This document shows positions 1,245-16,343 of a DNA stretch of 64,000 nt, piece by piece. Position numbers and translations under genes: made by a program. The notes under the pieces are model-generated. The model was not told the DNA's origin and searched no databases. It was given only the letters and a program-made list of their open reading frames with translations. The DNA lies in NCBI GenBank assembly GCA_022826755.1, contig JAJDUG010000030.1:1-64000 (forward strand). The letters are read 5' to 3'. Every line of letters starts with the position of its first letter. Positions within the stretch are counted from its first letter, which is position 1. Source of the stretch: Acidobacteriota bacterium (GTDB lineage: Bacteria > Acidobacteriota > Terriglobia > Versatilivoradales > Versatilivoraceae).

Positions 1245-3455
1245 CTATTCCGGCCGGGAGGCGTTCGGCTCGGCCTCGAAGCGCCGGGCGAGCAGGTATC
1301 GATACAGCTTGAGTGCCAGGCTCTCCTCGTTGTCTTCCAGCCAGCGCCTCGCATCCGGCGCCAGCAGCATGGTCTCACAGGGTTGGTCCGCGATCACCGA
1401 GGGCGCCTTCCCGTCCGAGGGATCGGCCGGCCAGATCGCGTCGCCGGGGCCGAACTGGCGGGAACGCCTGCCGGCGGCTTCCTGGGCGGAAGCGCGGCCG
1501 GAGGTGAGCAGTTGCAGGCCTTGGCTCGGCGCACCCGGCCCTGCCAGAGCTTCCCCGGCGGCGTAGCGGCACGGCGTCAACCAGTTTCCAAGCTCGTCCA
1601 TCAGGTCTTCGAATCGAATCTGCCGCTCCAGGTGTCGCTCGAGGTCGTCGACGGCGCGCTCCAGCAGCGATGCGCGGCGATCGCCAACCAGCCTTGCATT
1701 CTCGTTCCACGCCTGGATGACCATCTCCTCGCAGCGCTCCAGCGCGCGGTCCGCATCCGGTTCCACTCGCACGGCCGCCAGGTCCGACGGCGGAAGGTTG
1801 CGCTCCAAAAGGGACTTCAACTGCTCAGAGGGCGCGCTCAGGACCACCTGCACTCCGGTCGCGTTGGCCGATTGCAGGAACCGTGCCAGGACGGTCACCG
1901 CCGAGAAGTCGAAGCCGGAGACGGCCGCAAAGTCCAGCATCAGGCAGGTGGGCCGGGAGTCGCCGCTCAGGCATTTCCTGAGATGATCGGCCAGAGGGCA
2001 GACGCTTCCGAAGAAGATGTAGCCGCGCAGCCGGTAAGCCAGCACGCGCTCGCCCTCCTCCCGCAGGATGGCGCGGTCCGGAACGGGACGCGCCTTGGTG
2101 CTTCGGCGCTCGCGGGCCGTGAAGCGCGCCTGGATCGGGTCCACCCGGCTCAGGCGCACGGCGAAGAACACCAGGGCGGCCAGCATGCCGGCGGCCACGC
2201 CGTGGAACAGCCCGAAGGCCGTGATGATGCCGACGATCAGAAGGATGATGCCGTACTCCGACCGGGGAAGCCGCTTGCGGCTTCTCACCAGCCCTTCGTC
2301 CAGCATGCCGGCGTCGGCGAAGAAGAGCATGCCTCCCACCAGCGGCACCGGGACCAGCTCCAGCATCCCGTCGCCCAGAAACAGAGCGGCTGCGATGACG
2401 AGGGCGGTAACGACGCCGGTCAGGCGTGAGGCGGCCCCGAACAGCTTGCTGCGCAGCGAGGCGGGCACGATCATGCTGGCGGCCGTGCCGCCGCCGAGAC
2501 CCGCGACCACGCTGGCCAGCCCGGTCGCGCTGAACTCGCGGTTCCAGTCCAGATCCTGGTTGGCGGCCATTTCGAGGCCGGCGAGATTCATGATCACCAC
2601 GGTCAGCGCCAGCAGCAGCAGCGTCAGCAGGGACGGGAACTGCATGCCTATCGCGCTCCAGTCCACCTGGGCCAGGTCCGCGGGGCGGAAGGCAGGCCAC
2701 AGGCTGCCGTCCGAGGTGCTCTTCAGCAGGAGACCCGCCTCTCTCGCCTGGTCGCCGGAGATGTCGAGGACGGAGAGCACGAGGTGGAAGGCGCCGGCGG
2801 CAAGCGCGACGCTGACGGGCAGGATGAGGGGATGGCCCCAACGCTTCATCGCGAGATACAGACCGATCCCGAAGGCCGCTCCCGGCCCCCATCTCCAAAG
2901 GGCCGACGGTTCCACCAGCGCCGGAATCGCCCGCCAGTCCGTATCCGCCCCCATCAGGGCCAGGGCGGCCAGGCACACGGCTCCCCCGATTCCGGCCACG
3001 AACCCGCCGGCGACCGAGTAGGGGATGAACCGCACCAGGTTGGCAAGCCGGTATCGCCCTATCAGGAGAAAGCACGAGCCGGTGGCCACTGCGCCGATCA
3101 TGAGCGCCGCAGACGTGGTCACGAACAGCCCATCCCCTTCGGCGTCCATGGTGGCGCCGACCTGCGCCATCACGATCACCAGCGCCGGAGACAGTCCCGA
3201 TATCGCCCCGCGAAAACCGCCCGCGAGAGCGATGACCAGGCAGGCGGCGAAGTTTCCGAACAGAACCAGGCCGACGCCCTGGGAGGCATATGGAGCCAGC
3301 ATCCCGGAGAATATCAGGCTCCCGTAGGCGATCTGGGCGACCAGCAGCCCCAGGCCCGTGGTGAAGCCGGCCGACAGCGCCGGAACGGCCTTCGCCGACA
3401 CGACGTCCGCGCGAAGTTCCAAGGCCAGGTTGCGAAGGGGGGACGCCGTCGTCAC
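1245..3455 (-). CDS. SulP-family anion transporter with STAS and cNMP-binding-like domains
   Basis: The 736-residue protein is a putative inner-membrane anion (sulfate or bicarbonate type) permease. The first roughly 420 residues form repeated hydrophobic helices with the SulP-type core, including an early segment reading ISGLSPALVIVMAQVG. A STAS domain follows at about 470-580, recognisable from GYIFFGSV and LMLDFAAVSGFD. The last 110 residues resemble a cyclic-nucleotide-binding regulatory fold. Substrate cannot be read from sequence. The predicted start is GTG at 3455 and has no strong ribosome binding site. The gene stands alone, next to tRNA-Arg, and its stop borders the repeat-rich 1-1244 region. 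Confidence 0.88.
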   Translation of the reverse strand: MTTASPLRNLALELRADVVSAKAVPALSAGFTTGLGLLVAQIAYGSLIFSGMLAPYASQGVGLVLFGNFAACLVIALAGGFRGAISGLSPALVIVMAQVGATMDAEGDGLFVTTSAALMIGAVATGSCFLLIGRYRLANLVRFIPYSVAGGFVAGIGGAVCLAALALMGADTDWRAIPALVEPSALWRWGPGAAFGIGLYLAMKRWGHPLILPVSVALAAGAFHLVLSVLDISGDQAREAGLLLKSTSDGSLWPAFRPADLAQVDWSAIGMQFPSLLTLLLLALTVVIMNLAGLEMAANQDLDWNREFSATGLASVVAGLGGGTAASMIVPASLRSKLFGAASRLTGVVTALVIAAALFLGDGMLELVPVPLVGGMLFFADAGMLDEGLVRSRKRLPRSEYGIILLIVGIITAFGLFHGVAAGMLAALVFFAVRLSRVDPIQARFTARERRSTKARPVPDRAILREEGERVLAYRLRGYIFFGSVCPLADHLRKCLSGDSRPTCLMLDFAAVSGFDFSAVTVLARFLQSANATGVQVVLSAPSEQLKSLLERNLPPSDLAAVRVEPDADRALERCEEMVIQAWNENARLVGDRRASLLERAVDDLERHLERQIRFEDLMDELGNWLTPCRYAAGEALAGPGAPSQGLQLLTSGRASAQEAAGRRSRQFGPGDAIWPADPSDGKAPSVIADQPCETMLLAPDARRWLEDNEESLALKLYRYLLARRFEAEPNASRPE

Positions 3456-3491: not shown

Positions 3492-3568
3492 TGGTAGGCC
3501 TGGAGGGATTCGAACCCCCGACCTTCGGTTTAGGAAACCGCTGCTCTATCCTTCTGAGCTACAGGCCC
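3492..3568 (-). tRNA. tRNA-Arg (anticodon CCU)
   Basis: The 77-nt minus-strand cloverleaf has a 7-bp acceptor stem (GGGCCTG with CAGGCCT, one G-U pair), the D-arm core TAGCTCAGAAGGATAGAGC, an anticodon loop reading TTCCTAA (anticodon CCT), and the T-arm GGGGGTTCGAATCCC. The CCA end is encoded. The remaining interval to 3766 shows no other feature. Confidence 0.95.
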
Positions 3569-3766
3569 GCGTTGCAGTGATGCGCCGGCTTGGAAGATCC
3601 TGGGGTTTCCGCCGGTCGAGGGGATGTTAGCGAGCGCCTCGGGACCTTGGCAAGGAGTTTCGGGGAAGCCGCCCGCCGGTTCGGGGCGAGGCTGAACGCC
3701 GATTGCCGGCCCCGGCGGGAGGTGCCCGCAACCCGGCATGGGGAACGGAGAGGAGCAGGGAAAGTT

Positions 3767-5428
3767 TCATGGAGGTGGTCCGGCGGCTGAGCCGTCTCGT
3801 CTGGGATCGGCGACTCCGGTGAACAGTCCCCGCTCCCTCAGCACCAGTTGCACGCACCCCAGATAGAAGGAGTGAGGTTCCCGGACATCGACCTGGAAGC
3901 CATGTCGCTTCAGCATGTCGGGGATGTCATTGCGCATCCGCGAGGCCTCCAGGGACACCACGCCGTCCAGAGAGCAGTAGAGGCGCGGCGCATCCACCGC
4001 CGCCAGGGGTGTGAGATAGCCCAGGCGGACCAGCACCTGAAAGATGGACGGAGTGATGCGTTCGCTGCCGGGTGAACCGATGGCCAGCCAGGGGCGCTTG
4101 CCCCGGAACACCAGCGTGGGGGCCACGCTGGCCCAGGGCGCGGCATTGGGGCGCATGTAGTAGGGGTGGGAGATATCTTCGTATTCGAAGGCGCTCATGT
4201 AGTTGTTGTAGAGAAATCCCAGTTCCGGAGTTGCCGAGCAGGACCCGTAGACTCTTTCGATCGATTGGGTCAACGCGACCGCGTTCCCCTCCGGATCCAT
4301 GGCCGACAAATGGGTGGTTTCACCGCGTCCGGAAAAGCGCTTGCGGATCTGCCGCGCCACCAGCTTCCCGTACTCGGTGCTACGCATTCGTGTTCCCGAG
4401 ACCTGGCTGTAGAAGTTGGCGTCGAAGGGGCGGTCCTGCCTGTCCAGGAAGGCGCGCCGTATGGTTTCCGCCAGGAAGAGAGCGCCTCGCGGTGTTTCCA
4501 GGTCGGTGGACTCCTGGGGTAACTGCTGGTACACGTTGAGCATTTGGATCAAGGTGCGGCCCGCGCCCGGAGGGGGCATGGTAAAGACGCGGTGTCCACG
4601 AAAGCGGCCGGTCACGGGACGCCGCTCGATGGGGACCGGGATCTGGGCCATATCGTCCATGCGGATCAACCCCCGGTTTCGGACCATGTCCTGTTCGATG
4701 AGGGCTGCGATCTCACCCGTGTAGAAATCCTCGACCCCCTGCTGCGCCAGGCGTTGCAGGGTCCCGGCCAGGGTGGGCTGGCGGAACACCACTCCGGGCC
4801 GGTAGGGGTGGCTGCTTTCCCGCAGGAAAAAGGGGGCGGCCGTGCCCAGGCGCAGGTACTTGCGTTCCCTCCGGGACAGTTGGTACTGGAGCAGGCTCAC
4901 CCGGTAGCCCTCTTCGGCCAGCCTGCAGGCGGGTTCCAGCACCTGGGCGAGGCTGAGCTTCCCATAGTGCTGAAGAGCGTAGTTCAGGGTTGCCGGCGTG
5001 CTGGGAACGGTGACCGCGCGGTAACCGCGCTGGCGCTCGATCCTGAGATTCCGAAAGACTTCCCGGTTGGCGCGGTTGGGAGCGCGGGAGGAGCCGTCCA
5101 GGGCCATGGTGCGTCCCGAGGGGGCATGGTGAATGAGCATCATGGTTTGTCCGCCCAGACCCGAGGCCGCCGGTTCGCACACTCCCAGGGCGAAGGCCGC
5201 CGCCACGGCGGCATCGACGGCGTTGCCGCCGTTTTCCAGCATGGCGACGCCGGCCGCCGAGGCCTCGTAGTGAGCGGCGGAGACCATGCCCTTCCCGGAG
5301 ACCGCCAGGCGTTGGGCGTTATGGCTGGGCAGCCTGGTGAAGTTGGTCAGGTCCGTTTCAGGGTCCGCCTCCAGGCCGGCGGCGGCGCGGCGCCGCCGAA
5401 CCCTGGTCTGGGAAAGTTCGGAATTCAC
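3767..5428 (-). CDS. ggt: Gamma-glutamyltransferase family protein
   Basis: This is an Ntn-hydrolase that cleaves or transfers gamma-glutamyl groups from glutathione or gamma-glutamyl peptides. It is 553 residues long, near the usual length for the family. The autoprocessing site is the TTHLSAMD motif, with the catalytic threonine about residue 371. The early NGGNAVDAAVA segment and the late GSPGSERI segment are also typical. No signal peptide is visible (the N-terminus is charged and arginine-rich), so a cytoplasmic enzyme is likely, unlike E. coli GGT. The GTG start overlaps the stop of the upstream ATP-grasp gene by four bases (GTGA), which implies translational coupling. It is the last gene of a three-gene operon. 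Confidence 0.9.
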   Translation of the reverse strand: MNSELSQTRVRRRRAAAGLEADPETDLTNFTRLPSHNAQRLAVSGKGMVSAAHYEASAAGVAMLENGGNAVDAAVAAAFALGVCEPAASGLGGQTMMLIHHAPSGRTMALDGSSRAPNRANREVFRNLRIERQRGYRAVTVPSTPATLNYALQHYGKLSLAQVLEPACRLAEEGYRVSLLQYQLSRRERKYLRLGTAAPFFLRESSHPYRPGVVFRQPTLAGTLQRLAQQGVEDFYTGEIAALIEQDMVRNRGLIRMDDMAQIPVPIERRPVTGRFRGHRVFTMPPPGAGRTLIQMLNVYQQLPQESTDLETPRGALFLAETIRRAFLDRQDRPFDANFYSQVSGTRMRSTEYGKLVARQIRKRFSGRGETTHLSAMDPEGNAVALTQSIERVYGSCSATPELGFLYNNYMSAFEYEDISHPYYMRPNAAPWASVAPTLVFRGKRPWLAIGSPGSERITPSIFQVLVRLGYLTPLAAVDAPRLYCSLDGVVSLEASRMRNDIPDMLKRHGFQVDVREPHSFYLGCVQLVLRERGLFTGVADPRRDGSAAGPPP

Positions 5429-7587
5429 GGGACTCGATCCTCCAGTTCGTCGACAAGCAGCTCGGCCAGAACCAGTGTCCGCTGGATCACGCTGATGCGC
5501 TGAATGGACTCCTGAGGGGTTCCCCGGTCACGGGCTACCGGACTGACGCCGCAGAGACAGGCCACCTTGGGTGGAACCAGGCCGGCCACCGAGGCCCAGC
5601 TCGAGCTGTCTTTCTGCAGCACCACCCTCTGACCGGCGGCAATCTCCGCGACGGTTTTCAGGAATCGGTTGTTGATGGGCCTCTCCCTCATGGGAGGGCG
5701 ATCGGATTCGACCGCCAGTTCCCACTTGGCCCCTCCGCGGCCCAGGATGGACCGCATCCGGGCTTCGACCTGGTCGGCCACAGTGGAATCCGGGTAGGTC
5801 ATCAGAAGATGGGCGGTCACCCGGTGGGGAAGGCGCATGGGGTGCCGCTCGGTCCGCACATCCAGGGTCGAGAGAGACACTCGATCCTTGGCCGAGTTGA
5901 GTTGGGAAAGCGCCTCCAACTTTTGACAGGTCCAGCGCAGGGCGGCTCGGTCCTGGACGCCGCGACCGGGGAAGGGGCCTTCACCGACGACTCGCAGGCG
6001 GAACTTGCGGTTTCCCCTGCGACGCACGATGACACCCTCGCCGCGTGTCCCCGGCCGCAACACGATGACCCGTCTGGCCCGGGCCGCGGCAGCCTGGATC
6101 ATTTTCCGGCTCACCTGGGCATCCCGGCCCTCGTCGGTGTAGAGGCAGACCCCCAGCGGCAGGCGGCGCAGGCGTCGAATGCTGTGAAAGGATCGCAGAA
6201 CATGCTCCAGCATGACCAGGGGGGCTCGGGAGGTACCGATGCCCTCGCCGTAGAGCCACTCCGGCTCCCGGCGAAACGGCTGGTGGGGCGCCTCCAGACC
6301 CATGGCGACATCCAGATGGGCCACCAGCAGCAGGCCTCCCTCCAGTCCCCTGACCGTCTCCCAGGTAAAAACCTCCGGGTCGTCCGAAAGGTCGGGAACC
6401 TGCTTCATTCTCAAGCTGCCGAAGATCTCTCCGACTTTCTCAATGGCCTGCTGAACTCCGATCGGATCGCCGGTGCGGCTGGACAGGTCCACCCACGCTC
6501 GAAGATCCCTTTCGATCTGGGCGCGGCGTTGGGTGATGTAGGAGAGGACGTGAGACCTGGGGTCGACGGATTTCTTGTCCAGCAGCGGTGGCGAGGGCGT
6601 GCCGAAGTAGCGGGCGCTGGCGACCTCGACCAGGCGGTTGACAAAGGCCGCGAAGTCCAGTCCCACGTGGGCGGCCGCCACCAGGTAGGATCCGTTCTCA
6701 CCCAGGCTGGGCAGGCTGTTGACCTCCAGCACGTAGAGGCTCCCCTCCCGGTCCAGCCGCATGTCGACCCGGGCGCAGTCGTAGATGCCCAGGCATTCGA
6801 AGGACTTCTTTGCGATCTCGACCGCCTTGGCGGTCAATGGCTGGCCGATAGGCGCGGGGCAGGCGTGAGAGATCGTTCTCCCGCTTCGTCCGGTCTTGTC
6901 CTCGTAAGTGTAAATGGAGGGGGCTCCTTCTCCGAAGACCAGCTCCACGGGCGGGAAAGCCTCGGGCGGGTTGTTGCCCAGCAGGCCGACGTTGACTTCT
7001 CTGCCCTCGATGAACTGCTCGGCCAGCACGGCCTGGTGGAATTCGTCGAAGATCACTCTGGCGGCGCCGCGCAGCTCATCCTCGTCGTGGACGACCTTGA
7101 GGCCAAAGGAGACCGCCTCGTTCTTGGGCTTGACGATCATGGGATAGCGGAGGTCGGGAGGCAGGGGCATGTCCGGAGTCTGCAGGACCGCAAAATCGGG
7201 AGTCGGCACGTCGTTCTGGCGCAGGATCATCTTGGTGACCACCTTGTCCAGTGCCAGGGAGTGGCCCAACGGCCCCGAGGCGACGTAAGGGATGCCGACC
7301 ATTTCCAGAATGCTGGGAATGTGGGTGTAGCGGGCCTGCCCCTGCAGTCCGTAAGAGACGTTGAACACCATCCCGGGCCGCTCACCGTGAACCACGCGGG
7401 GCATGAAATCCTCCAGGCGGTCGATCAGATCCTTGTCGCCCTCCAGGGCGACCACTTCGTGGCCCCCTTTGCGCAGTGCATCGGTCAGCCGCCGGATGGT
7501 CTTCATGCCGATCTTCTCGCGGTTGGGCCTGCCGAACAGGTTGATGACGCTCTGGCTGTCGCGATTGTAGACGACGGCGATTTTCAT
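5425..7587 (-). CDS. ATP-grasp ligase fused to a degenerate M20-peptidase-like domain
   Basis: The 720-residue protein has two parts. Residues 1 to about 340 are an ATP-grasp domain like D-Ala-D-Ala ligase: FNVSYGLQGQARYTHIPSIL, then the ALDK lysine, and a C-terminal RVDMRLDREG...LEVNSLPSL metal/ATP site. The rest resembles M20 peptidases (ArgE/DapE/CPG2), with HLDV and a DEG segment. However, the expected bridging Asp (GTSRAP), second Glu, EPT-type acid (here RPG) and C-terminal His (here ARDRGTPQES) appear replaced. A peptide-ligase reaction is plausible, but the substrate is unknown. The ATG at 7587 is chosen over upstream extensions because it overlaps the stop of the LarA-like gene (ATGA) and starts the ATP-grasp fold. 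Its own stop overlaps the ggt start. Confidence 0.8.
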   Translation of the reverse strand: MKIAVVYNRDSQSVINLFGRPNREKIGMKTIRRLTDALRKGGHEVVALEGDKDLIDRLEDFMPRVVHGERPGMVFNVSYGLQGQARYTHIPSILEMVGIPYVASGPLGHSLALDKVVTKMILRQNDVPTPDFAVLQTPDMPLPPDLRYPMIVKPKNEAVSFGLKVVHDEDELRGAARVIFDEFHQAVLAEQFIEGREVNVGLLGNNPPEAFPPVELVFGEGAPSIYTYEDKTGRSGRTISHACPAPIGQPLTAKAVEIAKKSFECLGIYDCARVDMRLDREGSLYVLEVNSLPSLGENGSYLVAAAHVGLDFAAFVNRLVEVASARYFGTPSPPLLDKKSVDPRSHVLSYITQRRAQIERDLRAWVDLSSRTGDPIGVQQAIEKVGEIFGSLRMKQVPDLSDDPEVFTWETVRGLEGGLLLVAHLDVAMGLEAPHQPFRREPEWLYGEGIGTSRAPLVMLEHVLRSFHSIRRLRRLPLGVCLYTDEGRDAQVSRKMIQAAAARARRVIVLRPGTRGEGVIVRRRGNRKFRLRVVGEGPFPGRGVQDRAALRWTCQKLEALSQLNSAKDRVSLSTLDVRTERHPMRLPHRVTAHLLMTYPDSTVADQVEARMRSILGRGGAKWELAVESDRPPMRERPINNRFLKTVAEIAAGQRVVLQKDSSSWASVAGLVPPKVACLCGVSPVARDRGTPQESIQRISVIQRTLVLAELLVDELEDRVP

Positions 7588-8948
7588 GGTTCGGCAGGTT
7601 GATCGGCAAGCTCGATCTTCGAAGTGTTCCGACCGTCCGCTGCTTGCCCGGACCGGACTGTCGCCGCGAGTCGGGCGCCGGGCCGCAGGTGGCCGTCGTC
7701 CAGGTTTCCCTCGGCGTTGAAGGGGAGGGGACGCGGGTCGCAGAGAATGGCGAGGTCCTGGCGGCCGCGGGCTTCCTCGAGGTAGGCGGCCGAACATTCC
7801 ACCTCGGCCAGGGCCATGGTGTTGCGAATCCAGAGCAGCCGGGCGTCGGGAGGCTCGGTGAGGCCGATCTGGGACAGCATCACCTGGAGCATTTCGCGGT
7901 CGGTGGGGTAGTCCAGGGGGATCATGGCCTCCATGGTGAACCCCCCGGTCAAGGCATTGACCCGGGTCATGCCCACGTCCATCTTTTCCAGCGCTCGCCG
8001 GCGGCAGAACTCGACCGTCCCGATCCCGACGGCGCTTCCGTGGGTCAGGCGGCTCAGGTCCCGGATCCCGATCAGCCGGATCTTTGGGACTTCGTGCTCG
8101 GCCGGGCTGTGCCACAGGTGCTTGCGGCCGACCACGTTCAGGTCCAGCCCCGAACCGCTGATGTTCTTGCCGATCTCGTCCACCAGCAGGATATCCGCCG
8201 CCTGAAAGGGAAGACGGGGCATCCAGCGCCTGGCCTCCCGCAGCAGGGCCTTCTCTCCCTCCAGCAGCGCCTCGGGCCCGAGCGCCCGGATCCTGGCGGT
8301 CCGCCCGTAGCTGTTTTCCACCACGGCCAGCCCGGCCAGAATGGAGCACTTGGAGAGGACCTCCCGGGCCACGCTGCCGACGATTTGCCCGAAACTGTAG
8401 TCCTTGATGGCGCGATGGTAGATTCGGGCTCCGTCGTGCTTGCCCAGCCCGATCAGCATCATCTTCATGAGGCCGCTTTCGACCTCGCCCCTGAAGAGCG
8501 TGTGGGGCTTCACCCTGTTGCAGACCACCACGTGATCGGCTTGGTAGGCCTGCTTGTCGAAATGGACCGGGAAGCCTTCGGAGGCCCGGCAAACGACCAC
8601 CGTATCCATGCTGGATCGGATGGGACAGCCGCAGAAGTCCTCGGTGATCCCGTAGGACTCGAGGATGTTTCGCTGGCCCCGGGCGGTCGCCCCGCCGTGG
8701 CTTCCCATGGCGGGGACGATGAAGGGGTTGGCGCCCAGTCGCCGGAAGTGGCGCGCGGCGGCCCGCAGGATCGGGCCGACGTCGGCGATCCCCCGGCTTC
8801 CGGCGGTGATGGCCACCGTCTGGCCGGGCCGGACCCGATCCCCCAGGGAGAGACCTGAGAGTTCGGACTCGACGGCCCCGGAAACGTCGGCCAGCTCGGG
8901 TCCCTCGAAGTGCTGCCGCACCCGGAACATCCGCGGGAATTCAGCCAT
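7584..8948 (-). CDS. LarA-like (lactate racemase domain, Lar_N/DUF2088) protein
   Basis: The 454-residue protein is related to the nickel-pincer lactate racemase LarA and its uncharacterised paralogues. Conserved blocks are GSHGGAT at 82-88, GITEDFCGCPIRSSMDT, RVKPHT at 145-150 and ESGLMKMMLIGLGKHDGA at 157-174. These match the Lar_N family, in which the histidines and lysine hold the cofactor. The reaction is unknown: a racemase or epimerase is possible, but larB, larC and larE are not in the window. The ATG at 8948 is chosen because the family fold begins there and an AGGAG lies upstream. A longer frame to 9068 would run through intergenic repeat-like sequence. It is the first gene of the operon with the ATP-grasp/M20 fusion and ggt. 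Confidence 0.8.
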   Translation of the reverse strand: MAEFPRMFRVRQHFEGPELADVSGAVESELSGLSLGDRVRPGQTVAITAGSRGIADVGPILRAAARHFRRLGANPFIVPAMGSHGGATARGQRNILESYGITEDFCGCPIRSSMDTVVVCRASEGFPVHFDKQAYQADHVVVCNRVKPHTLFRGEVESGLMKMMLIGLGKHDGARIYHRAIKDYSFGQIVGSVAREVLSKCSILAGLAVVENSYGRTARIRALGPEALLEGEKALLREARRWMPRLPFQAADILLVDEIGKNISGSGLDLNVVGRKHLWHSPAEHEVPKIRLIGIRDLSRLTHGSAVGIGTVEFCRRRALEKMDVGMTRVNALTGGFTMEAMIPLDYPTDREMLQVMLSQIGLTEPPDARLLWIRNTMALAEVECSAAYLEEARGRQDLAILCDPRPLPFNAEGNLDDGHLRPGARLAATVRSGQAADGRNTSKIELADQPAEP

Positions 8949-9320
8949 CTCGCCAAAACGCTCCTGGTTTTGCGTTTTCAAAGTGTCTCCATTTGTGCCG
9001 CAACGGCTGCCGGCCATAAGGATAGAAACATCCATAGACAGGATCAACAGGAAGAGAGATTGTTGCACAAGCGAGCCCCACCCCCGACGACGGGACGGAT
9101 CATTCGAGATTGAAACAGGGTTGTTTTACAACAAGTTGCCGGTTCCGGGAGCAGGCAAGCGCCCTGTGAGGTGGTTGCACTCTATTTGTTCAGATAAGCT
9201 TGTGATGTTTGAAGGCGGCTTTGGCGGCCGCCCCGAGTTTGCACTAAACTGGGTGCCGGCGACGTGTGGCGGCCCTCCGGGGCCGCTTCGGCACCGCCTC
9301 CGCCGGCCGGAGATTCAAGG
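8949..9320. other. Divergent intergenic region between the LarA-like operon and hyuB
   Basis: This 372-bp gap separates two divergently transcribed operons and should contain both promoters, but no convincing -35/-10 pair was found on either strand. It holds copy 2 of the 32-bp repeat at 9089-9120, a boilerplate CAGGATCAACAGG motif near 9041, and a GGGAGCAGGCAAGCGCC segment near 9147 that resembles one near 11150. Confidence 0.6.
9089..9120 (+). repeat. 32-bp dispersed repeat, copy 2
   Basis: This segment matches 906-937 at about 29 of 32 positions in the same orientation. It lies in the gap upstream of hyuB. It is the only sequence shared between this regulatory gap and the repeat field at the left edge. 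Confidence 0.6.
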
Positions 9321-11039
9321 ATGTCCTCTCAGTTGGACTCGATTCAATTCGAAGTGATCCGAAGCGCGCTGGTGGAAGCCACCGAAGAGATGGCCGTCTC
9401 GCTCAGGCGCAGCGCCTATTCCACCAACATCAAGACCCGGGCCGACTTCTCCTGCGCCTACTTCGACCGGGAGCTGAGACCCATTGCCCAGGCCTTCGGT
9501 CAGGCGGTCCACCTGGGATCGCTGGTGGAGCTGGTGCCCCGGGCCGTCCGGGCATACGGTTTGGAGAAGCTGGGAGAGGGAGACGCCATCCTGACCAACG
9601 ACCCCTACTCCGGCGGGGTCCATCTGAACGACGTCACGCTCATTTCCCCGGTCCACGTCCGGGGAGAGTGCTTCGGCTATGTCGCCAACTTGGCCCATCA
9701 CGTGGACGTGGGCGGCGGGGCCCCGGCCAGCATCGGGGCTTTCCGGGAAGTCTTCCAGGAAGGGATCATCATTCCTCCCGTCAGGCTGGTGCGGGGAGGG
9801 GAAGTCGTCGAGGACCTTTTTGCGCTGGTGATGGCCCAGATTCGGTCCAGCTACGAGACGGCCGGAGACTTCCGGGCTCAGATGGCGGCCAACGTCACCG
9901 GGGTGCGCCGCTTGAAAGACCTGTTGACCCGCTGGGGAGCGGAAACGGTGCGGACCTGCCAGGAGGAGCTGCTGGACTACACCGAGCGCCGGGCGCGCGG
10001 GGAACTGGCCCGCCTGCCCCGCGGGGAGTTCGCCGCCGAGGGTGTCGTGGACAACGACGGCTTCACCGACCGGCCGGTGCGCCTGGCGGCCAGGGTGGTG
10101 ATCGACGAGAGGGGAGTCCTGTTCGATCTGAGTGGCTCCGACCCGCAAAGGCCGGCTCCGGTGAACTCCACCTATGCCATGACCTATTCGGCTTGCGCCT
10201 ACGTCCTCAAGTGCCTGATCGATCCGGACGTGCCGGTCAACCACGGCTTTTACCGCCTGGTGAGCCTGGCGGCGCCCGCCGGCACGGTGGTCCACGCCCG
10301 GCCTCCGGCGCCGGTGGTGGGTGGCTGGGAGACCCAGACTCGGCTGACCGACGTGATGCTCAAGGCCCTGGCGCCGGCTCTGCCCGAGCGTGTCCCGGCC
10401 GGCACCAAGGCCATGCAGTGCCAGGTGGGGTTCGGCGGCACCGACCCCAGGACGGGCGAGCTCTACGCGTTCTACGAGGCCATTGCCGGCGGCTACGGCG
10501 GACGGGCCTCCCGGGACGGTCCCGACGCCGTGCAGGCCCACGGCCAGAACACCGAGAACGCTCCGGTGGAAGAGATCGAGATCAATTACCCGGTCCGGAT
10601 CGGCCGCTACGAGCTGGTGGAGGAATCCGAGGGGGCCGGCAGGCAGCGGGGCGGCCTGGGGCTGCGCCGCGATTACTGCTTCCCGGATCACGCCGTCTCC
10701 TTTACCATCCTGGCGGACCGGGACCGCTGGGGCCCCTGGGGACTGTTCGGGGGGTTGCCCGGCCGCAAGGCCAGCTATGTTCTGAATCCGCAGGGCGCGG
10801 CTGCGCGGCTGGGCTCCAAGCTGACGCTACAGCTCCGGCCGGGGGACGTGGTCAGCTACCGCACCTGCGGCGGAGGCGGCTACGGGGATCCGCATCAACG
10901 GGATCCTGAGGCCGTGGCCGCCGACGTGCGGGAGGGCAAGGTCGGCCCGGAGCGCGCCCGGCGGATCTACCGGGTGGCCATCGACCCGGTCACGCTCCGC
11001 CTGGACGAAGAGCGTACCCGGGAGCTTCGCCGGGGGTGA
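9321..11039 (+). CDS. hyuB: Hydantoinase B / 5-oxoprolinase, HyuB family
   Basis: The 572-residue protein is the B subunit partner of HyuA. Such pairs perform ATP-dependent opening of hydantoin, N-methylhydantoin or 5-oxoproline rings. Family blocks are DSIQFEVIRSALVEATEEM at the start, NDPYSGGVHLNDVT, the histidine-rich NLAHHVDVGGGAPAS, and the C-terminal glycine run CGGGGYGDPHQRDPEAV. The ATG at 9321 fits the family N-terminus. An upstream in-frame extension to 9264 is less likely. hyuA lies 353 bp downstream, beyond a repeat-filled gap, instead of directly abutting as in many hyuAB operons. The substrate within the family cannot be assigned from sequence. Confidence 0.9.
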   Translation: MSSQLDSIQFEVIRSALVEATEEMAVSLRRSAYSTNIKTRADFSCAYFDRELRPIAQAFGQAVHLGSLVELVPRAVRAYGLEKLGEGDAILTNDPYSGGVHLNDVTLISPVHVRGECFGYVANLAHHVDVGGGAPASIGAFREVFQEGIIIPPVRLVRGGEVVEDLFALVMAQIRSSYETAGDFRAQMAANVTGVRRLKDLLTRWGAETVRTCQEELLDYTERRARGELARLPRGEFAAEGVVDNDGFTDRPVRLAARVVIDERGVLFDLSGSDPQRPAPVNSTYAMTYSACAYVLKCLIDPDVPVNHGFYRLVSLAAPAGTVVHARPPAPVVGGWETQTRLTDVMLKALAPALPERVPAGTKAMQCQVGFGGTDPRTGELYAFYEAIAGGYGGRASRDGPDAVQAHGQNTENAPVEEIEINYPVRIGRYELVEESEGAGRQRGGLGLRRDYCFPDHAVSFTILADRDRWGPWGLFGGLPGRKASYVLNPQGAAARLGSKLTLQLRPGDVVSYRTCGGGGYGDPHQRDPEAVAADVREGKVGPERARRIYRVAIDPVTLRLDEERTRELRRG

Positions 11040-11040
11040 C

Positions 11041-11317
11041 GAGTGGGGAGTGGGGAGTGAAGAGTGAAGAGTGGAGAGTGAAGAGTGAAGAGTGAAGAGT
11101 GGGGAGTGGGGAGTGGAGAGTGGAGAATGATCAGTGGAGGATGCTGGGAGCAGGCAAACGCCTGATGAGCCAGTTGCCCTTTCTCAAGGACTGCGCCGGG
11201 ATCAACAAGACATTAACTGATCGGTTCCAGTCATACTTGACGGATTGCGCCGAGACCGACAAGATGCTCTGCGGGTCGATCGAATAGCTCTTCACTCTCC
11301 ACTATTCACTCTTCACC
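11041..11317. repeat. GAGTGAAGAG inverted-arm repeat between hyuB and hyuA
   Basis: 11041-11127 is a low-complexity run of GAGTGAAGAGTG and GAGTGGAGAGTG units. 11288-11317 carries the complementary CTCTTCACTCTCCAC sequence. The two arms bracket about 160 bp of unremarkable sequence. Transcribed, they could pair into a long imperfect hairpin. The same arm family occurs at 16314-16349 and 16434-16463. Nothing else is seen in the 353-bp gap, except the AAGGAAGGGGG ribosome binding site before hyuA. Confidence 0.75.
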
Positions 11318-11392
11318 TGGGCGCGCCGCCGTCCCTTACGACCAGGCGGCTCACAAGGGGCGACACGGCGGTCGTATAAGGAAGGGGGTCCA

Positions 11393-13495
11393 GTGGCCTA
11401 CCGGCTGGGAATCGACATCGGCGGCACCTTTACCGACGCCACCCTCATCAACGAAGCCACCGGTGAAATTCGGATCGACAAGGTCCCCTCCACGCCCAGG
11501 GACCATTCGCAGGCGCTGCTGGAGGCCGCTCACCGAATTCTGACCGAAAACGGCGTCGAGCCGGCACAGGTGACCTACCTGGTGCACGGCACCACCGTGG
11601 CCACCAACGCCATCATCGAGGGAACCATCGCCCGCACCGGTTTCGTCACCACCGAGGGTTTTCGAGACCTGTTGGAGATCGCGCGCCAGATCCGCCCCAG
11701 CCTCTACGACCTCCAGTTCGAAAAACCCAGGCCTCTGGTGCCCCGATACCTCTGTTTCGGGGTTCCCGAGCGCCTGGATGACCGCGGAAAGGTGGTGACT
11801 CCCCTGGACGAAGGGGCCGTGGCCCGGGTGGCCCGGCGCCTGGCCGAGGAGGAGGTGGAATCGATTGCCGTCTGCCTGCTGCACGCCTACGCCAATCCGG
11901 AGCACGAGCAGCGCGTGGGCAAAATCATGCGGGAGGCCCTGCCGCAGGTTCCCCTCAGCCTTTCCAGCGAGGTGGCTCCGGAGTTCCGGGAATACTTCCG
12001 GGCCAGCACCACCGTCATCAATGCCGCCATCCAGCCGGTGGTGGCCCGCTACCTGCAGCGCATCGAGAGTCAACTGAGAAAGGAAGGGCTGGAGGCCGAG
12101 CTTCTCCTGATGCAGAGCAGCGGCGGGGTCTTCACCTTCGCCGAGGGACGCCGCCGGCCCGTGTTCATGGTGGAGTCCGGGCCTGCCGCCGGAGTCATTT
12201 CGGCGGCCTACCTGGGGAAGGAGTTGAACTTTCCCGACCTCATCTCCTTCGACATGGGGGGCACCACCGCCAAGGTCGGCCTCATCCAGGACGGGACCCC
12301 CAAGATCACCAAGGACTACGAGGTGGGCGCCTCGGCCCAGGCCGGCACCGGCGCCCAGCGAGGGTCCGGCTATCCCATTCGCACCCCGGTGATCGACCTG
12401 GTGGAGATCGGGGCCGGCGGCGGGTCCATCGCCTGGGTGGACTCGGGTGGGATCCTTCGGGTGGGGCCCCGCAGCGCCGGAGCCGAGCCGGGACCGGTCT
12501 GTTACCGGCAGGGAGGCAGCGAGCCTACGGTGACCGATGCCAACCTGGTTCTGGGCCGCCTGCAGCCCGACCACTTCCTGGGGGGGCGGCTCACCCTGGA
12601 CGTGGAGGCGGCTCGACGGGCGATCAAGGAAAAGTGCGCCGATATCCTGGGAATGGAAGTCGTGGAGGCTGCCCACGGCATGGTGGAGATCGCCAATGCG
12701 GCCATGGTGAACGCCTTGCGGCTGGTCTCGGTACAGCGGGGGTACGACCCCAGGCGGTTCGCTCTGGTGGCCTTCGGCGGGGCCGGACCCGTGCACGCCA
12801 ACCGCCTGGCCGCCGAGATGGAAATGCCCACCACCATCATCCCCCCCAGTCCGGGGACCACCTCGGCGCTGGGACTGCTGGTCACCGACCTCAAGCACGA
12901 GTATACGACCACTCTGATCGAGCGCCTGGACCGGCTCGACCTTGCCGCGGTGGAGGCGACCTACCGCGGGCTGGAGACGCAGGGAAGAGAGACGCTCGCC
13001 AGGGAAGGGGTGCCGGAGCCGGACATCGGATGTGTCTGGCAGGCCGAGCTGCGCTACGTGGGACAGAGCTATGAATTGAATATTCCATGGGCGGAGAACC
13101 GCATCGATTCCGCCACGGTCCGGCAGGCGGCCGAGCGGTTCCACCTCGAGCACGACCGGGCCAATGGATTCAGTGCGCCGGAAGAGCCGGTCGAGCTGGT
13201 CAACCTCCGCCTGGTGGCCGTCGGTCGCATCCGTAAGCCCGCGCTGCGGCAACGGAAGGCTGTCGGGCGAGACTTGTCCTCGGCGCTGGCGGCCACTGCT
13301 TCGGTCTATTTCGAAGAGAGCGGCGGCTACGTGTGCTGTCCCCTCTATGACCGCTACCGATTGGAGCCCGGCCACCGGATGGAGGGGCCGGCCGTAGTGG
13401 TGGAGCTGGACTCCACCACGGTCATCCATCCGGGGTGCCTGGCAGAGGTGGACCGCCACGAGAACCTGATTCTGCGAAACCGTGCGTCCCGCTGA
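11393..13495 (+). CDS. hyuA: Hydantoinase A / 5-oxoprolinase, HyuA family
   Basis: The 700-residue protein is the ATP-binding subunit that pairs with HyuB. The N-terminus has the actin-like phosphate loop GIDIGGTFTDA at about 5-15, followed by HGTTVATNAIIEG. The middle has SFDMGGTTAKVGLI, and GAGGGSIAWVD and SAGAEPGPVCYRQGG are typical HyuA blocks. The start is GTG, with the purine-rich AAGGAAGGGGG a few bases upstream. The length matches bacterial HyuA. Its TGA overlaps the ATG of the next gene (TGATG), so hyuA, the CocE-type hydrolase and the dehydratase-like gene form a coupled operon, with hyuB presumably upstream in the same unit. Confidence 0.92.
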   Translation: MAYRLGIDIGGTFTDATLINEATGEIRIDKVPSTPRDHSQALLEAAHRILTENGVEPAQVTYLVHGTTVATNAIIEGTIARTGFVTTEGFRDLLEIARQIRPSLYDLQFEKPRPLVPRYLCFGVPERLDDRGKVVTPLDEGAVARVARRLAEEEVESIAVCLLHAYANPEHEQRVGKIMREALPQVPLSLSSEVAPEFREYFRASTTVINAAIQPVVARYLQRIESQLRKEGLEAELLLMQSSGGVFTFAEGRRRPVFMVESGPAAGVISAAYLGKELNFPDLISFDMGGTTAKVGLIQDGTPKITKDYEVGASAQAGTGAQRGSGYPIRTPVIDLVEIGAGGGSIAWVDSGGILRVGPRSAGAEPGPVCYRQGGSEPTVTDANLVLGRLQPDHFLGGRLTLDVEAARRAIKEKCADILGMEVVEAAHGMVEIANAAMVNALRLVSVQRGYDPRRFALVAFGGAGPVHANRLAAEMEMPTTIIPPSPGTTSALGLLVTDLKHEYTTTLIERLDRLDLAAVEATYRGLETQGRETLAREGVPEPDIGCVWQAELRYVGQSYELNIPWAENRIDSATVRQAAERFHLEHDRANGFSAPEEPVELVNLRLVAVGRIRKPALRQRKAVGRDLSSALAATASVYFEESGGYVCCPLYDRYRLEPGHRMEGPAVVVELDSTTVIHPGCLAEVDRHENLILRNRASR

Positions 13496-15414
13496 TGGAA
13501 CCCCCCGATCCATTCCAGGTGGCCATATTCAAGGATCTGATGATCCCCATGCGGGACGGGGTGCGCCTGGCGGCCGACATCTACCGGCCGGCACGGGGCG
13601 GGGAAGTGCTGCCGGGACCCTTTCCGGCCCTGCTGGTGCGCACCTCCTACGACAAGCAGGCGGAATGGCTCATTGACGAGGTGGCCCACCACTTCACTCC
13701 CGGAGGGTTCGTGCTGGTGCTGCAGGACCTGCGCGGCCGGCACCGCTCCGAGGGAACGGGCCAGTATTTCCACACCGTCAACGAGACGGCCGGGTCCGAC
13801 GGTTACGACACCGTGGAGTGGATCGCGGCCCAGCCCTGGTCCAACGGCCGGGTGGGCGCCATGGGGAGCTCCCATCTGGGCCTGGTCCAGACCCACATGG
13901 CCCTCTACCGGCCGCCCCACCTGCGGGCCATCTGGCCCGATGTCATCCCCACCAACAGCTATGCCCACCAGGTGCGCTGGGGCGGGGCCATGCAGCTCCA
14001 CATGTTCGGCGCCCTCTTCCTGCATGCCTACGACGCCCAGGAGATTCGGGACGACCCGGCGGCCCGCCGTCGGGTGCTGCTGGGCATGGAGCAGATGGGC
14101 CACTGGGTCCGGCAGACGCCCTTCCAGCCGGGCGGCACTCCTCTGGCAGCGGTCCCCAACCTGGAGAAGACCCTGTTGGACTACTATCGCCGGGGGGCTT
14201 ACGACGAGTTCTGGCGGCTCGAGAGCAATGATTTCGAGCAGCACTTCCAGCGCCACGCCGACATCCCGGGCACCTACAGCGGCGGCTGGTACGATCCCTT
14301 CGCCATCGCCGTCACCCGCTACTACGCCGCCATGGCCCGGCAGAACCGGACGCCTCAACGTCTGGTCATGGGGCCCTGGACCCACGGGGGCATGCGGGCG
14401 GGACATTCCTTTGCGGGAGACGTGGACTTCGGCTCCGAGGCGGCCTGGGGGCGCGACCGCTACAACCGGGAACGGCTCGCCTGGTTCGAGGGCTGGCTGA
14501 AGGACCCACCCGGGGCTCCGGATCCCAATCCGCCGGTGCGTCTCTTCCGCATGGGCGGAGGCAGCGGCCGAAGGAACGCGGCCGGAAGGCTGAGCCATGG
14601 CGGGGAATGGCGCAGTGAAAACGAGTGGCCGCCGGCCCGCACGCGCTACCGTCCCTGGTACCTGCACGGCGGCGGAGGGTTGAGTCCCTCCCCACCGCCT
14701 CCCGGCGCGCCTCCCGCCCGCTTCGACTTCGACCCTTCCCACCCCGTGCCCACCATTGCCGGAGCCATGACCAGCATCTTCGAGCTGGCTCCCCTGGGCG
14801 AACTGGCGCAGTCCCCCTGGTCCGGGTTCATCCCCGCGCGGGCCCGGATGCGCAGCCTGGTGACCGAAGGGGCGGCCGACCAGAAAGAGCATCCGGGCCT
14901 GTTCGCCTGCCGGCCCCCGTTCCCTCGCCTGTCGCAGCGGGCCGACGTGCTGGTCTTTCAGACGCCTCCCCTGGAAGAGGAGGTGGAGTTGACCGGCCAC
15001 ATCACCGCCAGGCTGTGGATTTCCTCCTCGGCCCCGGATACGGACTTCACCGTCAAGCTCCTGGACGTCTACCCTCCCAACCCGGACTACCCGGAGGGCT
15101 ACGACCTGAACCTGGTGGACGGAATCCTCCGGGTTCGTTACCGCAACGGATTCGAGACGGAGGAATGGATGCGGCCCGGCGAGGTCCATGCCATCGAGAT
15201 CGACCTGCCGCCGACCAGCAACTGCTTCAGGGCCGGCCACCGGATTCGGGTGGACGTCTCCAGCAGCAACTTCCCTCGCTTCGACGTCAACCCCAACACC
15301 GGCGAGCCCATGGGAAGGCACACCCGCACCCAGGCGGCCCGCAACACGGTCTACCTGGACGCCGGCCGGCCCTCCCACCTCGTCCTGCCCATCATTCCGA
15401 GGAGACATCCCTGA
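13495..15414 (+). CDS. CocE/NonD-family alpha/beta hydrolase (X-Pro dipeptidyl-peptidase-like)
   Basis: The 639-residue protein combines the S15-type alpha/beta hydrolase domain with the C-terminal X-Pro dipeptidyl-peptidase jelly-roll. Evidence includes MRDGVRLAADIYRP at the start, DLRGRHRSEGTG, and the nucleophile elbow MGSSHLG with the likely serine at residue 126. GPWTHGGMR supplies the His block, and the last third has VDVSSSNFPRFDVNPNTG. Family members hydrolyse esters or release N-terminal dipeptides. No signal peptide is seen. The start overlaps the hyuA stop (TGATG), and the stop overlaps the next start in the same way, which ties it to the hydantoinase operon. The exact substrate is unknown. 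Confidence 0.88.
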   Translation: MEPPDPFQVAIFKDLMIPMRDGVRLAADIYRPARGGEVLPGPFPALLVRTSYDKQAEWLIDEVAHHFTPGGFVLVLQDLRGRHRSEGTGQYFHTVNETAGSDGYDTVEWIAAQPWSNGRVGAMGSSHLGLVQTHMALYRPPHLRAIWPDVIPTNSYAHQVRWGGAMQLHMFGALFLHAYDAQEIRDDPAARRRVLLGMEQMGHWVRQTPFQPGGTPLAAVPNLEKTLLDYYRRGAYDEFWRLESNDFEQHFQRHADIPGTYSGGWYDPFAIAVTRYYAAMARQNRTPQRLVMGPWTHGGMRAGHSFAGDVDFGSEAAWGRDRYNRERLAWFEGWLKDPPGAPDPNPPVRLFRMGGGSGRRNAAGRLSHGGEWRSENEWPPARTRYRPWYLHGGGGLSPSPPPPGAPPARFDFDPSHPVPTIAGAMTSIFELAPLGELAQSPWSGFIPARARMRSLVTEGAADQKEHPGLFACRPPFPRLSQRADVLVFQTPPLEEEVELTGHITARLWISSSAPDTDFTVKLLDVYPPNPDYPEGYDLNLVDGILRVRYRNGFETEEWMRPGEVHAIEIDLPPTSNCFRAGHRIRVDVSSSNFPRFDVNPNTGEPMGRHTRTQAARNTVYLDAGRPSHLVLPIIPRRHP

Positions 15415-16343
15415 TGAATCCCTTGCACCACCGAACCCCGCTGTGGGAGTCCAGGCCCCTGAGCGCCCTGCTGGGCGCCCGGGTCTGGCTCAAGCTGGAT
15501 GCGCTTCAGCCCACCGGCTCCTTCAAGATCCGGGGTGTCGGCCACGCCTGCCAGTCGGCCCTGTCGAAAGGGGCCCGGGCCCTGGTGGCTTCATCCGGGG
15601 GCAACGCCGGCTACGCCGTGGCCTACGCCGGCCGCCGGCTCGGCCTGCCGGTCACGGTGGTGGTTCCCGAGACGACCTCCAGCCTCATGCTGGAACGGCT
15701 CCGCGGCGAAGGAGCCGCCGTCATCCGGCAGGGAGCCGCCTGGGACGACTCCCACGCGCTGGCGCTGGACCTGGCCCGCCGGCAGGAGGCTGCCTATATC
15801 CACCCCTTTGACGATCCCAAGATCTGGGAGGGCCACGCCAGCCTGGTGCGGGAAGTCCGGGAGGCCGGGGTGAAGCCGGACCTGGTGGTGCTGGCGGTCG
15901 GCGGCGGCGGGTTGCTGTGCGGCGTGCTGCAGGGAATGCACCGGGAAGGATGGAAGGAGGCGCCCGTCTGCGCGGTGGAGACCGAGGGGGCCGACTCCTT
16001 TTCCCGGTCGGTCCAGGCCGGGCGCCTGGTGACCCTGCCGGGCATCGCTTCGCTGGCCACCTCCCTGGGGGCTCGCCGGGTCGCCTCCCGGGCGCTGGCC
16101 TGGACAGAGTCCCATCGGGTCCTTCCCTGGGTGGTGTCCGACCGGGACGCCGTCGGGGCGGTGTTGCGTTTTGCCGACGACCACCGCATGCTGGTGGAGC
16201 CGGCCTGCGGCGCGGCTCTGGCTGCCGTCTACGACCGGGCGGAGCCGCTGGGGGGAGCCGAAACCGTCCTGGTGGTGGTGTGCGGCGGCGCCGGAGTCAC
16301 CCGGAAGCTCCTGGAAGAGTGGAGAGTGGAGAGTGGAGAGTGA
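15414..16343 (+). CDS. PLP-dependent serine/threonine dehydratase-like protein
   Basis: The 309-residue fold-type II PLP enzyme probably deaminates L-serine or L-threonine to a 2-oxo acid. The Schiff-base lysine is in PTGSFKIRG (Lys38), the substrate loop is SSGGNAG at 60-66, and the phosphate-binding glycine run is AVGGGGLLCG. The length and single-domain form resemble eukaryotic-type serine dehydratase, not the longer IlvA. The ATG overlaps the stop of the CocE gene (TGATG). The last residues (EEWRVESGE) are encoded by the beginning of a GAGTGGAGAGTG repeat run, so the natural C-terminus was probably altered by repeat insertion. Confidence 0.88.
   Translation: MNPLHHRTPLWESRPLSALLGARVWLKLDALQPTGSFKIRGVGHACQSALSKGARALVASSGGNAGYAVAYAGRRLGLPVTVVVPETTSSLMLERLRGEGAAVIRQGAAWDDSHALALDLARRQEAAYIHPFDDPKIWEGHASLVREVREAGVKPDLVVLAVGGGGLLCGVLQGMHREGWKEAPVCAVETEGADSFSRSVQAGRLVTLPGIASLATSLGARRVASRALAWTESHRVLPWVVSDRDAVGAVLRFADDHRMLVEPACGAALAAVYDRAEPLGGAETVLVVVCGGAGVTRKLLEEWRVESGE

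Follow-up and report, generated by a model that had tools for sequence, protein, structure and literature searches.

Does a 12.5-kb block of divergent genes in an Acidobacteriota bacterium encode a single pathway, or does it bring together units with separate histories? The block lies at positions 3767–16343 of the window, a 64,000-nucleotide stretch (contig JAJDUG010000030.1, positions 1 to 64,000), where a LarA-like gene, a fused ATP-grasp ligase/M20 gene and a gamma-glutamyltransferase (GGT)-like gene on the minus strand face hyuB, hyuA, a CocE-type hydrolase gene and a dehydratase-like gene on the plus strand, with all seven genes found on the strands assigned to them in the original prediction. 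The ligase/M20 gene (LIG-psiM20) and the GGT-like gene are two members of a widespread operon, completed by a gene with the N-formylglutamate-amidohydrolase fold (FGase-like), that probably forms a cytosolic amide ligase/amidohydrolase module, possibly for a compatible solute. The operon itself is well supported, whilst its function is inferred, as a prediction from sequence, structural models and genomic context.

When 84,980 species genomes were scanned with an alignment of five ligase/M20 sequences, 72 loci were returned, of which a few (L117–L119 and L122) are mere distant Ddl relatives; as the scan requires exact peptide patterns, the distribution it gives is a lower bound. Gene calling and tblastn show that a third gene, encoding about 230–290 amino acids, adjoins the ligase and GGT genes, with all three present in 51 of the ~56 loci with enough sequence, the exceptions being L053, L094, L098, L106, and L114. 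These loci span at least 12 phyla, which according to the record titles include Acidobacteriota, Actinomycetota, Planctomycetota, Pseudomonadota, Desulfobacterota, Myxococcota, Nitrospirota, Nitrospinota, Chloroflexota, Bacillota, Zixibacteria, Latescibacterota, and others. The usual order is LIG-GGT-FGase, with 4-base overlaps in most loci, the order being GGT-LIG-FGase in Bacilli and GGT, third gene, LIG in an Aminicenantes metagenome-assembled genome (MAG); in an Aquifex-labelled MAG the ligase lacks the M20-like part. Pairwise distances among the three proteins correlate at 0.72–0.80, and within the family of Salipaludibacillus 21 of 35 genomes carry the FGase gene. The operon keeps its composition and close spacing, its genes are inherited together, and coupling this tight, maintained in a dozen phyla, argues strongly that the pathway is real. 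The ligase and GGT genes do belong together as a conserved pair, and the suggestion that this region holds an undescribed pathway apparently stands for the three-gene set, which has no description in the open-access literature searched, although an earlier mention in the 2009 work on amidoligase operons (Iyer et al.) is possible.

The LIG-psiM20 gene (5425..7587, minus strand) encodes a Ddl-type ATP-grasp ligase (6610–7587) fused to an M20/carboxypeptidase-G2-like domain (about 5428–6567) without metal ligands. Its AlphaFold model (predicted local distance difference test, pLDDT, 86.9) clearly folds into two predicted domains, with Foldseek matching the first to DdlA/DdlB (target-normalised TM-score, TMt, about 0.85) and the second to carboxypeptidase G2 (about 0.76), and with no PDB match spanning both domains among the 50 matches listed; the C-terminal part is not recognised by any Pfam model. 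The ligase scores 150.1 bits against TIGR01205, under the cut-off of 245.65. All 59 sequences keep the ATP/Mg2+-site residues R273, D275, E288, and N290, and the equivalents of S150, Y216, and S281 of E. coli DdlB, which we take to be substrate residues, are Val in 58 of 59, Thr, Lys or another residue, and Gly in 59 of 59, respectively. The alignments put Ddl E15 opposite N22 or E24, neither of which varies. In the M20-like domain, D141 (carboxypeptidase G2 numbering, by alignment) is always replaced, by Ser, Val or Thr, E176 by Gly in 59 of 59, and H385 is variable, such that the full set of the metal ligands examined (H112, D141, E176, and H385) occurs in none of 58 sequences. With its metal ligands lost, the domain is very likely not a metallopeptidase, and an active M20 peptidase fused to the ligase is ruled out on these positions.

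The GGT-like protein (3767..5428, minus strand), assigned by family search and residue alignment to the N-terminal nucleophile (Ntn) hydrolases of peptidase family T03, scores 343.6 bits against TIGR00066, just under the cut-off of 357.85. Whilst its Thr nucleophile (T371, in a TTH motif) is present in 54 of 54 sequences, the alignment indicates that the pocket has been rewritten, with R114 of the E. coli enzyme replaced by Ser (52 of 54), Q430 by Tyr (54 of 54), D433 by Ala (51 of 54), and S462 by Ala (48 of 54). In the E. coli enzyme these four residues hold the gamma-glutamyl group, and their replacement makes gamma-glutamyl, glutathione or oxoproline chemistry unlikely; the gamma-glutamyl or oxoproline route first proposed for the locus thus loses its footing in a GGT-like enzyme without glutamyl-holding residues and an M20-like domain without a metal site. 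The AlphaFold model of the FGase-like protein (pLDDT 96.4) resembles the N-formylglutamate amidohydrolase 2q7s (query-normalised TM-score, TMq, 0.79; E 4e-12, Foldseek) and, weakly, M14-type enzymes such as MpaA. The family has invariant His, Asp, Asn, and Arg positions, and its scores against the HutG model TIGR02017 (55.6 and 70.5 bits) are far under the cut-off of 278.75. All three operon proteins therefore fall under the curated cut-offs of their namesake families, and the names D-Ala ligase, gamma-glutamyltransferase, and N-formylglutamate amidohydrolase are opposed or unsupported by the sequence evidence for all three. A simple hydropathy screen found no N-terminal hydrophobic stretch in any of them, the GGT-like protein being without a signal peptide, and the three are therefore taken to look cytosolic. 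These features support a putative unit, located in the cytosol, that combines one ATP-grasp ligase with two amide hydrolases or transferases whose substrate pockets are altered, plus a dead M20-like domain.

The Ddl fold of the ligase half raises the alternative of a role in the cell wall or in D-amino-acid metabolism, where a dipeptide of the D-Ala-X type or a peptidoglycan fragment would be made or recycled, with the FGase-like and GGT-like proteins acting as amidases. The likeness of the FGase model to M14-type enzymes such as MpaA, weak as it is, points the same way, and the MscS channels found nearby (see below) would suit turgor and wall stress. However, the substrate-residue equivalents of Ddl are changed throughout the family, the host carries another Ddl-like gene, the operon proteins look cytosolic, and nearly all relatives in the phylum lack the third gene, which was found in 1 of 297 genomes drawn from it. 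We consider this role unlikely, and return to an amide ligase/amidohydrolase module as the preferred description of the operon.

The copy in the window is decayed. With the sister genome G001 as the reference, ~1 kb is gone between the GGT gene and the tRNA-Arg(CCT) (3492..3568, minus strand) that borders the operon. What remains of the third gene is an open reading frame on the minus strand (3627..3770) whose ATG at 3770 still overlaps the stop of the GGT gene, an arrangement shared with intact operons, and whose first ~17 codons, MKLSLLLSVPHAGLRAP, resemble the opening of intact copies, MKLPLLLSVPHAGL..., after which there is no similarity until the stop at 3627. Relatives of the third gene are present in G001 and G002, but none was found anywhere in the host genome, ruling out an intact copy elsewhere. 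The operon of the window has lost its third gene by deletion, and for this reason the original prediction did not include a member with the N-formylglutamate-amidohydrolase fold.

Hosts and neighbours offer some guidance as to what the amide might be. Named isolates with the operon are species of Salipaludibacillus, Alkalicoccus, and Evansella, and Imhoffiella purpurea, with the named cultured hosts that were checked being halophilic or marine; many MAG labels probably point to projects on sponges, marine sediment or vents. S. keqinensis has its growth optimum at 8% Na+ (PMC6554603), and the literature lists Imhoffiella purpurea as marine (PMC7824335). A gene of the MscS family, confirmed with Pfam PF00924, lies in 9 of 49 loci (L053, L055, L068, L077, L079, L084, L090, L093, and L106), where the genome-wide counts of those genomes predict 0.54 (P about 2e-9), in a test that treats loci as independent though some are related, on neighbours picked after being seen. 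CorA lies in 6 of 49 loci, compared with 0.14 expected, four of them in close relatives which, counted once, leave three lineages (P about 4e-4), and in L051, L077, and L093, also three lineages, a CNNM gene precedes the ligase by 20–120 bases. In a Desulfococcaceae locus (L116 6559–18446) the operon sits amid a methyltransferase/Ddl-like fusion, an AstE/AspA-type deacylase, a GNAT/carbon-nitrogen hydrolase, and a K-Cl-cotransporter-like gene, with the methyltransferase resembling glycine/sarcosine methyltransferase and the deacylase the ectoine-degradation deacetylase DoeB, weakly and under all cut-offs. Separately, four loci from different lineages (L083 14420–15160, L090, L094, and L108 59–820) have a small Ser/Thr-kinase-like gene, a possible regulator, next to the operon.

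These hosts and neighbours suggest, tentatively, that the amide serves as a compatible solute or is some other metabolite linked to salt. In the mechanism we envisage, the ligase would spend ATP to join an acyl compound and an amine as an amide, which the GGT-like and FGase-like enzymes would cleave, transfer, trim or recycle in the cytosol, whilst the dead M20-like domain may bind the substrate or product, or regulate, shape or dimerise the ligase. The fullest form of this proposal, that the operon makes and recycles a new compatible solute or salt-linked amide across at least 12 phyla of marine, saline, and soda habitats, with the dead M20 domain acting as a ligand-binding regulator of the ligase, is rather doubtful at present, though if true it would add a new solute class for marine and soda-lake bacteria. 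An equally doubtful alternative is catabolic scavenging, in which the enzymes would dismantle an N-acylated or amidated amino acid compound that occurs in marine or saline habitats and is imported, with the ligase only activating or re-amidating an intermediate. Two of the three operon proteins have hydrolase folds, and the Desulfococcaceae operon lies beside a deacylase and a GNAT/carbon-nitrogen hydrolase, both consistent with scavenging; however, no substrate transporter is a constant neighbour, the recurrent neighbours are instead mechanosensitive channels and Mg2+ transporters, and conservation is highest in the ATP-consuming ligase (median identity 71%, compared with 47% for the M20-like part).

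Several points weigh against a salt-linked amide module. The pocket assignments come from aligning the sequences with E. coli GGT and Ddl, with the roles of the residues taken from homologues. The neighbour enrichment is guilt-by-association among lineages that are not fully independent. Furthermore, the five exception loci and the window itself show that operon genes can be lost or separated.

The remainder of the block belongs to a different unit. The LarA gene (7584..9068, minus strand) encodes a nickel-pincer isomerase of LarA group 22 (NF052515, 484.6 bits, cut-off 400) whose family domain starts near residue 44; LarC and LarE are encoded in the host genome, and no substrate for group 22 was found in the open-access literature searched. 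On the plus strand, divergent from larA, follow hyuB (9321..11039; hydantoinase B/oxoprolinase family), hyuA (11393..13495; hydantoinase A/oxoprolinase family, by family searches), the CocE/NonD family hydrolase gene (13495..15414), and the gene of the predicted dehydratase (15414..16343), a 309-residue PALP protein of the serine/threonine dehydratase type starting at 15414; the listed open reading frame starts at 14625, 13435, and 9264 are in-frame starts further upstream. The overlaps described earlier are confirmed, with an ATGA joining the larA stop (7584) to the ligase/M20 start (ATG 7587), a GTGA joining the ligase/M20 stop (5425) to the GGT start (GTG 5428), and TGATG at both hyuA/CocE (13495) and CocE/PALP (15414). 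hyuB is uncoupled from hyuA by 353 repeat-rich bases (11040..11392), in which direct GAGTGAAGAG-type repeats and inverted copies occupy 11040–11320, with a similar repeat-bearing spacer in G001 (L041).

The proposal that both operons form one pathway, dismantling and perhaps re-ligating gamma-glutamyl or oxoproline-type compounds to alpha-keto acids, draws on the overlapping genes and on an adjacency shared by the window and G001, which has the same gene order. This adjacency is, however, confined to part of one genus, with each half occurring alone. The hyuA-CocE-PALP genes stay together in genus members with testable contigs, including G003, G004, and G006, which lack the ligase and GGT genes, and hyuB and LarA lie beside them in the host genus where contigs allow. 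The divergent larA/hyuB pair is also found in G001, G005, and G006, with tRNA-Arg(CCT) and integrase genes after larA, replacing the ligase and GGT genes, in G005 and G006, whilst in G003 larA adjoins the tRNA. In 20 regions around more distant LarA group-22 homologues neither hyu nor the ligase adjoins, a single PALP gene and a single GGT relative each lying several kilobases off. Conversely, in various phyla the ligase/GGT pair stands without LarA or hyu, as it does in two genomes from a different family within the class, where MscS-like, MgtE-like, and CNNM genes accompany it. In G002, MscS-like, MgtE_N, MgtE, and CNNM genes, all four absent from the window, lie between larA and the ligase (L046 3334–7560). 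The larA/ligase overlap is a local feature, which the window owes to a spacer ~141 bases shorter than that of G001. In addition to the missing gamma-glutamyl-holding residues, hyuA and hyuB each fall under every curated NCBIfam equivalog cut-off matched. A combined pathway is very improbable, and is rejected on the conservation pattern: the whole 12.5-kb arrangement is not conserved, its two operons being found separated in relatives, partly the outcome that the original prediction had named as refuting it. LarA and hyuBA-CocE-PALP make up a unit of their own at genus level, which to judge from family names only is probably one of hydroxy-acid or amide catabolism. The 12.5-kb cluster owes its appearance to two units, one now decayed, that lie side by side in this lineage, a caution against inferring a pathway from local gene neighbours.

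Several further observations concern this surrounding DNA. The tRNA-Arg(CCT) followed by an integrase in G005 and G006 (L042 4190–5377; L044 4383–5654) is an apparent integration site, with ~13 kb in G006 between the tRNA side and the SulP gene. A mobile island at this tRNA carrying the ligase and GGT genes is unsupported, the G005 and G006 integrases lying on the other side of the tRNA and the operon also fitting the locus structure of other families. The SulP gene is whole in the window (1245–3455), and in G003 (L043 15749–16228) only its two end fragments are seen, beside larA and the tRNA. Two more LarA paralogues occur in the host genome (L049 770–2029; L050 7969–9225), the latter followed by a gene that, read by eye, looks like a 2-hydroxyacid dehydrogenase. 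Beyond the block, positions 17809–20364 encode a helicase of the Rad3/DinG type whose N-terminal domain is PD-(D/E)XK/Cas4-like; G008 (L045) has a relative of this helicase near larA and PALP.

Comparison with known systems sets the three-gene operon apart from each. The N-acetylglutaminylglutamine amide (NAGGN) system, comprising a GNAT/ATP-grasp synthetase, an asparagine-synthase-like amidotransferase, and an M42 peptidase, similarly encodes an ATP-grasp amide ligase with a peptidase-type hydrolase and serves osmolyte metabolism, NAGGN being named as an osmolyte in the literature searched. The operon ligase, however, has no GNAT domain, no asparagine-synthase-like gene or M42 peptidase is present, and a Ddl-type ligase with a pseudo-M20 domain, a GGT-like and an FGase-like enzyme are found instead, such that domain content and neighbours rule out the NAGGN system. 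Ddl (TIGR01205) shares with the operon ligase its fold and the aligned ATP/Mg2+-site residues, but the operon ligase is under the cut-offs, altered at the S150, Y216, and S281 positions, and extended by the M20-like domain. Similarly, gamma-glutamyltransferase (TIGR00066; T03) shares the fold family and the Thr nucleophile with its TTH motif, the GGT-like protein differing in its score, its replaced gamma-glutamyl residues, and its lack of a signal peptide, whilst N-formylglutamate amidohydrolase/HutG (TIGR02017) shares its fold with the FGase-like protein, which is far under the cut-off and without histidine-utilisation genes as recurrent neighbours. The M20-like part has the whole-domain fold of carboxypeptidase G2, including the lid domain, and departs from it in the unconserved D141, E176, and H385 ligands and in the ligase fusion. 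Finally, RimK/RimB and RloABC of Pseudomonas, which have a hypo-osmotic phenotype, belong to unrelated protein families (RimK-type ATP-grasp, retropepsin, and transglutaminase), but likewise encode an ATP-grasp protein and a protease in one operon, with Rlo also containing a catalytically dead enzyme domain (PMC12239564).

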